Below, one piece after another: positions 22,704-27,406 of a DNA stretch of 64,000 nucleotides (position 1 is the stretch's first letter; each line of letters opens with the position of its first letter). The stretch is from assembly GCA_038734945.1 (NCBI GenBank), contig JAVYOA010000009.1:248001-312000 (forward strand), in the 5' to 3' direction. The DNA comes from Fervidicoccaceae archaeon (GTDB taxonomy: Archaea; Thermoproteota; Thermoprotei_A; Sulfolobales; Fervidicoccaceae). A program made the position numbers and the translations under genes. The notes beneath the pieces were generated by a model. The model was not told where the DNA came from, searched no databases, and worked only from the letters and a program-made list of their open reading frames with translations.

Positions 22704-23252
22704 CTAGGGAGGTGAGGGAAGCTTTCCCCTCTCTCTGCTCTTAGCTACTTCTGCAGCTTCTCTCAATATTGACTCTACCTCATTGCTTACCTCATTATTG
22801 TATGTGAAGCTTCCCTCTATCTGAGCGAATGAGCTGATTTCTATTCCCATATCATTAAGCTTTTCCTCAAGGTCTGAAAACATAAGCGAGAGCTCTGGAG
22901 CAGCCTTAATAAAGCTCTTTTTCAGGTCTGCTACCAAAGGGATTACTTCCTTTGCAATATCTATGGTGGCATTCATATCAAGCATCGTCTCAAATTTTAC
23001 TCTGAGCCTCTCCACGGAAAATCTCATGGCCTTTATATTTCCCAGCACCTTCTTTCTCTCTGCCAGTTCAGAAGCTATTTGAAGAGCCATATCTTTTCCA
23101 TAGAGATCATTGACCTTCAATATTTCCTGCATTTTCTCTTCAATTCCTCTCTCTAGCTTTCCTTCAATGAACCTTAGCTTGTTCTCCATAACTCTAAGAG
23201 TAGAGACTGTCCTGGCAAGCTTCGTTCTATCGATCTTTTTCTTACCAAACAA
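22704..23252 (-). CDS. ESCRT-III-like protein, CdvB family (Snf7-type)
   Basis: A 182-residue helical protein with the basic N-terminus and long amphipathic helices of archaeal ESCRT-III proteins (compare TLRVMENKLRFIEGKLE and AMRFSVERLRVKFE). CdvB proteins polymerise at membranes to drive cell division or vesicle budding. It lacks the C-terminal broken winged helix by which CdvB binds CdvA, so it resembles the shorter CdvB1/B2/B3 paralogues. The C-terminus is short and proline-rich (LPSPP). TTG start at 23252, seven bases after GGTG. First gene of a two-gene operon with the RHH protein. Whether it acts in division cannot be told from sequence. Confidence 0.85.
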   Translation of the reverse strand: MFGKKKIDRTKLARTVSTLRVMENKLRFIEGKLERGIEEKMQEILKVNDLYGKDMALQIASELAERKKVLGNIKAMRFSVERLRVKFETMLDMNATIDIAKEVIPLVADLKKSFIKAAPELSLMFSDLEEKLNDMGIEISSFAQIEGSFTYNNEVSNEVESILREAAEVAKSRERGKLPSPP

Positions 23253-25471: not shown

Positions 25472-26212
25472 ATGAGCAAGTCTTTCAAAATTTCAACTCT
25501 CTTTCCTGTTGATCTAATTGTCGATGTAAACGAAGAAATTCATTCCAAGAATCTATTTGAGGAGCTGAAAAGATTGGGAATAAAGATAGCTGTTTTGAAG
25601 TTGGAAGCGGGCGACTACCTGATTCCAGCAGAAAATGGAGCAGGGATTCTGATTGAGAGAAAAAGAGACGAAGATTTCATTTCAAGCATAATTGACTCTA
25701 GATTATGGAGCCAAGCTGAGCTCCTTTCTAAAGCTTCAAAAGAAAAAGGCTTAATTTCTGTTTTGCTAATTGAAGGAGATCTTTGGAAAGCCATTAAGGA
25801 AAGGGGAATTTCGGAAACTGCTGTCATTAGATCTATAGATGAAATAGCAATTGATTTTAGAATTCCCATCATCTATACTTCTGGTCCGAAATCTACTGCC
25901 TCGTGGATTGCAGCGAAAATAAAATCGATCAATAGAAAAAGAGGAAAAGAAAAATTCCTGCCGTATGTCAGAAAAAAAGCGAGAAGCGATAGCGAAAGGA
26001 TTTTGAATTCTTTAGCCATATTGACAGGATACGAAACTGCTAGGAAACTTCTATTAAAATATAGGACACTGAAGAACGTGTATTCATGCACCATAGAAGA
26101 TCTAATGAGCATAGAGGGAATTGGAGAAACGAGAGCCAGAAAGATTTTCACACTTTTCAATCTGTCCTATGAAGAGAAAAACAATGCGGAGGCCAGGGGA
26201 GAGGAAAGATAA
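25472..26212 (+). CDS. xpf: XPF/Mus81-family structure-specific endonuclease (short crenarchaeal form)
   Basis: A 246-residue nuclease that cuts branched DNA such as 3' flaps and fork structures. The ERCC4 nuclease core shows D48 in GDYLIP and the hallmark E62-R63-K64-R65-x-x-D68. Two helix-hairpin-helix motifs follow, the last being MSIEGIGETRARKI. As in other crenarchaea there is no N-terminal helicase domain (unlike euryarchaeal Hef). The family works with PCNA through a C-terminal peptide; here the tail (EKNNAEARGEER) shows no clear PIP box. ATG at 25472 follows GAGGTAATG. Its stop abuts the 3' CCA end of the tRNA half on the other strand. Confidence 0.9.
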   Translation: MSKSFKISTLFPVDLIVDVNEEIHSKNLFEELKRLGIKIAVLKLEAGDYLIPAENGAGILIERKRDEDFISSIIDSRLWSQAELLSKASKEKGLISVLLIEGDLWKAIKERGISETAVIRSIDEIAIDFRIPIIYTSGPKSTASWIAAKIKSINRKRGKEKFLPYVRKKARSDSERILNSLAILTGYETARKLLLKYRTLKNVYSCTIEDLMSIEGIGETRARKIFTLFNLSYEEKNNAEARGEER

Positions 26213-26251
26213 TGGTAGCCGGGCGGGGATTCGAACCCCGGTCGCGGGGGA
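26213..26251 (-). tRNA. Isolated 3' half of a tRNA gene (candidate split tRNA)
   Basis: Read leftward: T38 (26251), anticodon-stem 3' strand CCCCC (26250-26246), five-base variable loop GCGAC, T stem CGGGG / loop TTCGAAT / CCCCG (26240-26224), acceptor 3' strand CCCGGCT (26223-26217), discriminator A and encoded CCA (26215-26213). All of nucleotides 38-76 are canonical. No 5' acceptor strand (AGCCGGG expected) or D arm occurs within some 100 bases on either side, nor anywhere else I could find in the window. The five-base variable loop excludes Leu and Ser. The break lies exactly at 37/38, the canonical archaeal splice position. The isotype is unknown. A recombination remnant is the alternative. 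Confidence 0.75.
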
Positions 26252-26310
26252 TCTCCCCAGCCTCCTCAACCCCCTTAGATGTTTTTGTATCATCCCCCTT
26301 TTAAATTTTT
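26252..26310 (-). promoter_or_regulatory. TATA element and GC-rich leader of the tRNA half
   Basis: On the minus strand an AT-rich box (ATTTAAAA, 26305-26298) lies about 25 bases before a GC-rich leader that runs from about 26275 to 26252 (GGGGGTTGAGGAGGCTGGGG and on). In known split tRNA genes the 3' half has such a leader, complementary to a trailer on the 5' half. Part of this leader (GGAGGCTGGGGAGA) is nearly complementary to TCTCCCCTGGCCTCC just beyond the CCA end, inside the antisense of xpf. The same TATA region is symmetric and might also serve the recombinase gene. Confidence 0.45.
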
Positions 26311-26371: not shown

Positions 26372-27406
26372 ATGGAGAAATTGTTATCTCCTCCGCCCGA
26401 AAGCTTAAAAAAAGGGAATTTGAGAGAGGCGATGGAACTTTTTCTGAATTTACTGAGGGCAGGAGGCTCCAGCGAAAAAACTATCTTGAGCTACCGCGCA
26501 GCAATAGAGGACTTTCTAAATTCAACAGGATTGCAGAAAGCTGAAGACATAAAGCAGGAGATTATTGTTTCATGGATAAATTCAAAGCTGAAAAAAGGAG
26601 GAAGAGAGAGAAAGAAAGTTCAGGCTACAATGCATTATTATACATTGTTTGTTCGGAGATGGCTAGTTTGGCTAGGTTTCTCCAAGGATATTATTCCAGT
26701 TGTAAAGAAGCCCAGCTCATCAGAGGTAACAGCCCTTACAGAGGAAGAAGTAGAAAGACTCATGAACTCATGCAGAGATCTTACGGATTTGCTTATTGTT
26801 TCCCTCCTCTTTGAAACAGGAATGAGAGCGAATGAGCTTCTTTCTATTACAGATGATGATATAGATATCCAGAAGGGAGAGGTTGTAATTAGAAATGCTA
26901 AGTATGGCAAAGAAAGGGTTGTTTTTTTGGGAGAGATATCCAAAAAAGCTGTGGAGATGAGGCTTGAAGAACTGAGAAAGATTGGCGGAGGAAGAATTGT
27001 GAGCTTATCATATAATGGGCTATACAAGAGATTGAAGAGCTTGGCAAGAAGATCTGGATTGGACGAAGAGAAGGTTCATCCACACATTCTCAGACATACT
27101 TTTGCTACCGTTGCTATACGAAGAGGTATGAGCCTTCCTGCTCTGCAGAGAATACTTGGTCATTCTGATATAAAGATCACTCAAGTCTACATGCACCTCG
27201 TAAAGGATGATTTGAAGAGAGAATACAGAGAAAAATTCTTTAAAGAAACCATGATCTCAGAAAAAATTAACTCCAACCCAGCAGAAAAGAAGAAAATCAA
27301 CTATTGCCCAAATTGTGGAAGCAGAATAATACCTGGTTCAAAATTCTGTCCATACTGTGGATTCCATCTTGAGTTGAATTCTGAAGCAGCAGAAGATGTT
27401 TCATGA
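26372..27406 (+). CDS. xerA: XerA-like tyrosine recombinase with C-terminal zinc ribbon
   Basis: A site-specific recombinase of the XerC/D class; XerA resolves chromosome dimers at dif in archaea. From the ATG at 26372 it has 344 residues: an N-terminal SAM-like core-binding domain, then the catalytic domain with R (GMRANELL), K (KYGKERVV), H-x-x-R (HILRHTFA), H (LGHSDIKIT) and nucleophile Y (QVYMHL). A zinc ribbon CPNCGS...CPYCGF is appended, which short XerA proteins lack. An earlier in-frame ATG at 26312 is possible. Its position next to a tRNA fragment recalls integrases of mobile elements, but the neighbouring genes are housekeeping genes, so I favour XerA. Confidence 0.8.
   Translation: MEKLLSPPPESLKKGNLREAMELFLNLLRAGGSSEKTILSYRAAIEDFLNSTGLQKAEDIKQEIIVSWINSKLKKGGRERKKVQATMHYYTLFVRRWLVWLGFSKDIIPVVKKPSSSEVTALTEEEVERLMNSCRDLTDLLIVSLLFETGMRANELLSITDDDIDIQKGEVVIRNAKYGKERVVFLGEISKKAVEMRLEELRKIGGGRIVSLSYNGLYKRLKSLARRSGLDEEKVHPHILRHTFATVAIRRGMSLPALQRILGHSDIKITQVYMHLVKDDLKREYREKFFKETMISEKINSNPAEKKKINYCPNCGSRIIPGSKFCPYCGFHLELNSEAAEDVS

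Follow-up and report, generated by a model that had tools for sequence, protein, structure and literature searches.

Does a transfer RNA (tRNA) 3' half standing alone in an archaeal chromosome belong to a working gene, or is it debris? The question is raised by a locus in a 64,000-nucleotide (nt) stretch of DNA (hereafter the window) from a Fervidicoccaceae archaeon of hot-spring type, positions 248,001 to 312,000 of contig JAVYOA010000009.1. A sequence-only reading of this DNA had picked out an isolated tRNA 3' half, starting at tRNA position 38, and proposed a split tRNA joined at 37/38, with a fragment left by integration as the alternative. Here we describe an analysis of the locus in the window's genome (G000; 1.34 Mb in nine contigs, 99.95% complete, with the window on contig C9) and in related genomes of the order. 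The element appears to be the 3'-half gene of a trans-spliced tRNA-Gln, with one 3' half serving both the CUG and the UUG isoacceptors; we put the probability of this reading at about 0.94.

Two 5' halves and their probable shared 3' half

A search of the genome with AGCCGGGTNG gave exactly two matches, on two contigs other than the window's. The Gln(CUG) 5' half at C4:17898+ reads AGCCGGGTAGTCTAGCGGCCAAGGATGCGGGGCTCTGG and is followed by the trailer TCCTCCTCCTCAACCCCC; the Gln(UUG) 5' half at C3:24362- has the same sequence but with CTTTGG, followed by the trailer ACCAGCCTCCTCCCCCC. Both start with AGCCGGG and carry a D arm and a GC-rich trailer complementary to the leader of the 3' half, as had been predicted for a distant partner. 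The sequence-only reading implied a single 5' half; a partner does exist, but there are two, Gln(CUG) and Gln(UUG), for the one 3' half. Its expectation of pyrimidines at positions 34 and 35 is borne out, position 35 being a pyrimidine and position 34 being C or U. The three loci lie on contigs of 536, 42 and 81 kb, distant from contig ends. Joined in silico to the two 5' halves, the 3' half of the window yields molecules that ARAGORN calls as tRNA-Gln(CTG) and tRNA-Gln(TTG), 97% identical to the intact Gln tRNAs of relatives.

The 46-tRNA set of G000 is complete, and both Gln tRNAs are present as halves only. The inventory was built from covariance-model matches and a T-arm pattern scan, and the anticodons of intron-containing tRNAs were read by hand. 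No intact tRNA-Gln gene was found in G000 by the covariance model, the T-arm scan or a pattern for intact or short-intron Gln genes, and the 3' half is present there as a single copy. An intact gene elsewhere, with no complementary 5' half, had been named beforehand as the outcome that would speak for a remnant; the genome has complementary 5' halves and no intact gene. The region at C9:44240 contains a tRNA that falls below the tRNA-model threshold, probably tRNA-Trp, with a ∼120-nt intron carrying C/D-box-like motifs.

On the minus strand, 26274-26213 reads GGGGGTTGAGGAGGCTGG GGAG AT/CCCCCGCGACCGGGGTTCGAATCCCCGCCCGGCTA CCA, where the slash marks the start of the tRNA 3' half at base 38. The features of the locus, all on the minus strand, are as follows.

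26213..26215, minus: encoded CCA end of the 3' half (from the sequence)
26216..26250, minus: tRNA-Gln 3' exon, with C38, anticodon-stem 3' strand CCCCG, variable loop, T arm, acceptor 3' strand and discriminator A (from the sequence and the in silico joins)
26251..26252, minus: AT, the two leader nucleotides of the 3' bulge, ahead of the cut (from bulge-helix-bulge geometry)
26253..26256, minus: GGAG, leader strand of the 4-base-pair (bp) central helix, opposite tRNA positions 32-35 (from the central-helix comparison)
26257..26274, minus: GC-rich leader GGGGGTTGAGGAGGCTGG (from pairing with both trailers)
26298..26310, minus: candidate promoter AAAAATTTAAAAG, AT-rich and like a B recognition element (BRE)/TATA box, ending 23 nt ahead of the leader (from the motif score)

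The window is without an ARAGORN tRNA call, and at the 3' half the tRNA covariance model scores 21 bits, below its threshold. Intact Gln tRNAs of relatives match the 35-nt exon at 97-100% identity over their 3' half, which is far from chance. Those intact tRNAs read ...CTTTGG/CCCCCGTGACCGGGG..., which fixes C38 as the first base of the exon and the stem as CGGGG/CCCCG. Three details of the sequence-only reading need correction. The 3' strand of the anticodon stem is CCCCG and not CCCCC, so that the exon starts at C38 and the variable loop has four bases and not five; the stem strand of the partner is CGGGG and not GGGGG.

The leader part GGGGGTTGAGGAGG pairs with the CUG trailer over 14 bp, and the part GAGGAGGCTGG pairs with the UUG trailer over 11 bp, with 5 bp more beyond a 2-nt bulge. 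Shuffled leaders equalled these perfect pairings in 0/2000 (CUG) and 7/2000 (UUG) cases. The complementarity thus exceeds chance, and it also covaries across genera. For both 5' halves the join at 37/38, the site originally proposed, forms a bulge-helix-bulge, with two 3-nt bulges and a 4-bp central helix; all four central pairs are present in each of the 20 half pairs examined. The second G of the leader GGAG stands opposite wobble position 34 and is able to pair with C34 or U34. A single 3' half could serve both isoacceptors because its leader holds overlapping complements to both trailers and a G facing the wobble base.

Two PF01974 splicing-endonuclease proteins (C1:82711+ and C2:192847+) and an RtcB ligase (C3:17402-18709-) are encoded in G000. 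In Crenarchaeota, two diverged endonuclease subunits form a broad-specificity alpha-beta enzyme, and the two diverged subunits here point to an enzyme of this two-subunit type. The type has been linked with split tRNAs (PMC4033280).

A pathway may be proposed in which the promoter of the 3' half transcribes leader and 3' half, while two other loci transcribe 5' halves with anticodon CUG or UUG, each ending in a GC-rich trailer. Trailer and leader would pair in trans, and the leader GGAG would pair with positions 32-35, producing a bulge-helix-bulge with G36-G37/N on one strand and A-U/C38 on the other. The two-subunit endonuclease would cut both bulges, and RtcB would ligate G37 to C38 to give mature tRNA-Gln(CUG) or tRNA-Gln(UUG). 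Transcription, cutting, joining and charging are predicted from the sequence.

Separate tRNA-Gln halves in related genomes

Separate Gln halves are found in 8/8 genomes of the family (f1, G000-G007, with G000 included), and leader and trailers covary wherever both halves were found; the sets differ by genus and the pairing is kept. The arrangement of G000, a pair of 5' halves with a lone 3' half, recurs in G001 and in the complete, single-contig G004; the halves of G004 are at least 46 kb apart. G005 has two 3' halves, one with a leader that pairs with the UUG trailer (12 bp) and the other with the CUG trailer (12 bp); the crossed pairs reach 4 and 6 bp, at shuffle expectation. In G003, G006 and G007 a UUG 3' half and the UUG 5' half are on opposite strands, 3.4-3.9 kb apart. 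The CUG 5' half was not found in G006 (91% complete) nor in some incomplete genomes. The second 3' half of G006 has an unusual leader, less GC-rich.

The split extends to a further family of the order, f5, in which shared 3' halves occur in G021, G031, G048 and G055, and CUG alone was found split in G011 and G040. A pattern for an intact or short-intron Gln gene had 0 matches in the five f1 and four f5 genomes sampled (completeness at least 85%). In G043, of family f8, the CUG Gln gene keeps a cis intron. The UUG halves of this genome lie ∼700 nt apart on one strand with complementary arms of more than 20 nt, an adjacent arrangement like that of tRNA-Asp in Aeropyrum pernix. Most other families of the order have a whole Gln gene, or a short intron exactly at 37/38 with the same central helix.

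Alternative explanations

Several observations weigh against a trans-spliced tRNA-Gln pair. Free-energy minimization shows the GC-rich precursors favouring other folds by about 10 kcal/mol. Explicit junction structures were evaluated because the minimum-energy result of RNA co-folding lacked the functional fold; they reach -65 to -67 kcal/mol and are not the minimum-energy fold. This objection is tempered by the same program giving no cloverleaf even for the unmodified mature tRNA. Promoter scores are moderate for the 3' half and low for the UUG 5' half. With a motif learned from the regions upstream of 30 tRNA genes in G000, the 3' half scores 7.8, the UUG 5' half 5.5 and the CUG 5' half 12.1, and the 30 tRNA genes range from 5.3 to 14.3. 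Among window positions the value of 7.8 ranks near the top 0.1%, and it falls low in the tRNA-promoter range; TATA-like boxes stand at the expected distance for all three halves. Finally, a small internal loop of 1 x 2 nt interrupts the CUG junction close to the central helix; a strict in-register test understates the pairing at loops of this kind.

That loop, set beside a UUG helix perfectly in register, is also what favours a functional pairing with one 5' half only, the other isoacceptor having decayed or using another, missed 3' half. We consider this improbable. There is a single 3' half at 99.95% completeness, both trailers match the same leader at length, and the same sharing is seen in G001, in the complete G004 and in four f5 genomes.

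A tRNA fragment left beside the recombinase gene by integration of a mobile element was the alternative raised at the outset. tRNA 3' ends are common attachment sites, and the start of a tyrosine-recombinase gene (26372-27406; Phage_integrase E 7e-33, zinc ribbon present) is ∼60 bp from the candidate promoter of the 3' half. However, the genome has neither an intact tRNA-Gln nor a second copy of the 3' half, and the half is preceded by a candidate promoter and by a leader that matches trailers at two other loci. In G001, G002 and G006 a 3' half likewise lies between the ERCC4 nuclease and the recombinase, which suggests that the Xer-like recombinase is a resident chromosomal gene. With a recombinase that stays in position among relatives and no further tRNA copy, the 3' half is very unlikely to be an attachment-site scar, and we rejected an integration remnant.

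Equally hard to sustain is cis-splicing from a single gene, whether across a very long intron or within a read-through transcript: relatives commonly have cis introns at this site and the UUG halves of G043 are close together on one strand, but the halves of G000 lie on three contigs with one 3' half for two 5' halves, which rules out a cis intron unless contigs are misassembled, and those of single-contig G004 are far apart. A permuted tRNA-Gln is dismissed, the 5' halves being on other contigs and not downstream of the 3' half.

We therefore prefer a trans-spliced tRNA-Gln pair to an integration scar because of its partners, their pairing, the lack of an intact gene, the enzymes, the covariation, the dedicated halves and the intron-bearing relatives. 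At the level of sequence, the genomes display the halves, their complementarity, the lack of intact genes, the enzymes, the covariation and the synteny across relatives.

Possible origin of the shared half

The base of the leader that faces position 34 differs between the isoacceptors. In cis introns of the order it is G in 23/23 distinct CUG introns, and in 28 distinct UUG introns it is A (22), G (5) or T (1); the G/A bias has a Fisher p of about 1e-9, with introns counted regardless of relatedness. The dedicated UUG halves of G003, G005, G007 and G043 have A (GAAG) and dedicated CUG halves have G; the UUG half of G006, with GGGG, is an exception. All shared 3' halves carry G at this place. 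Since G forms a regular pair with C34 and a wobble pair with U34, a half of the CUG type could also serve UUG, and the reverse would not work; the A typical of UUG partners pairs with U34 alone, so capture could go one way only.

Sharing may thus have arisen by takeover. The ancestor of the family would have had one 3' half per isoacceptor, and in this genus the CUG-type half, with its G facing position 34, would have captured the UUG 5' half, and the original UUG 3' half would have disappeared; we rate the chances of this history as about even. The location of the halves bears on it. The place between the ERCC4-nuclease and recombinase genes holds the shared 3' half in G001 and G002 as well; G006 has its second 3' half there, and in G005 the half dedicated to CUG is beside the same nuclease gene. 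The UUG 5' half is at the same locus in six genomes of the family. On the simplest reading, the UUG partner first lost its own 3' half and was then taken over by the CUG half next to the nuclease gene. Takeover stays a model because the CUG 5' half of G006 was not found, the 3' half of G004 is elsewhere and several genomes are incomplete.

Initiator tRNA-Met and neighbouring genes

The initiator tRNA-Met of G000 looks split too. A 5' half, ...CGCGGG/AGGTGCGTGGGCTACCGCC, is at C2:38731+, and a 3' half with the leader GGCGGTAGCCC... is at C2 about 36360-36269 (minus). The halves are convergent and 2.4 kb apart, with the apparent join at 30/31; the 3' half additionally contains a cis intron at 37/38. 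The G004 gene for this tRNA is undivided and has an intron at each of the two sites, which allows a direct intron-to-split comparison. A permuted gene was rejected, as this cis-intron form in a relative shows the split at 30/31. The flanks are complementary (GGCGGGG before, CCCCGCC after) and could form an extra stem round the precursor; a similar pair occurs in G004.

In the window, the convergent ERCC4/XPF-like gene has its stop codon (26210-26212) directly against the CCA end of the tRNA-Gln 3' half. Further away, 22704-23252 (minus) encodes a protein with a weak Snf7 (ESCRT-III/CdvB-like) match, beside a 231-amino-acid protein.

Discussion

A 2014 review listed ∼29 split tRNA genes in seven genomes (PMC4033280), and shared 3' halves and arms of 13-14 bp are established for split tRNAs (PMC3218864, PMC4033280, PMC4390854). 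A close parallel is tRNA-Glu(CUC/UUC) of Nanoarchaeum equitans, in which two synonymous 5' halves use one 3' half, with a join at 37/38, GC-rich arms and a bulge-helix-bulge (PMC3218864 Table 1; PMC4033280). It differs in amino acid and belongs to an unrelated symbiont lineage, whereas for tRNA-Gln the sharing can be followed by comparison with dedicated halves in sister genomes. N. equitans also trans-splices tRNA-Gln(UUG), but for UUG only and with the join at 32/33 instead of 37/38 (PMC3218864 Table 1). The split and tri-split tRNAs of Caldivirga maquilingensis (Gly, Ala, Glu) likewise combine a constitutive 3' transcript with alternative anticodon-bearing transcripts (PMC4390854, PMC4033280); the amino acids are others, and Gln here has no three-piece tRNA. 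The split tRNA-Asp of Aeropyrum pernix and Thermosphaera aggregans and tRNA-Lys of Staphylothermus are recent splits of the Desulfurococcales type with 13-14-bp arms; tRNA-Asp is joined at 37/38, as the Gln pair is, and tRNA-Lys at 30/31 (PMC3218864). Their halves are adjacent or kilobases apart with one partner each, in contrast to the three dispersed loci and shared half of tRNA-Gln.

In the open literature, with subscription papers and tRNA databases outside the search, no account turned up of split tRNAs in Fervidicoccus, of a split Gln(CUG), or of two Gln tRNAs with a common 3' half. As far as we found, two things are new: a split pair, Gln(CUG) and Gln(UUG), with its join at 37/38 and a spread across two families, and the evidence of a CUG-type half taking over a UUG partner.

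The family has a split pair of essential tRNAs fixed across it, and close relatives display a whole gene, a cis intron, dedicated halves and a shared half. This series bears on whether split tRNAs are ancient or recent, and the Gln halves look derived from introns. The finding also suggests what determines which halves can combine, and, if true, takeover would be a rule for how the parts of split tRNAs become interchangeable.
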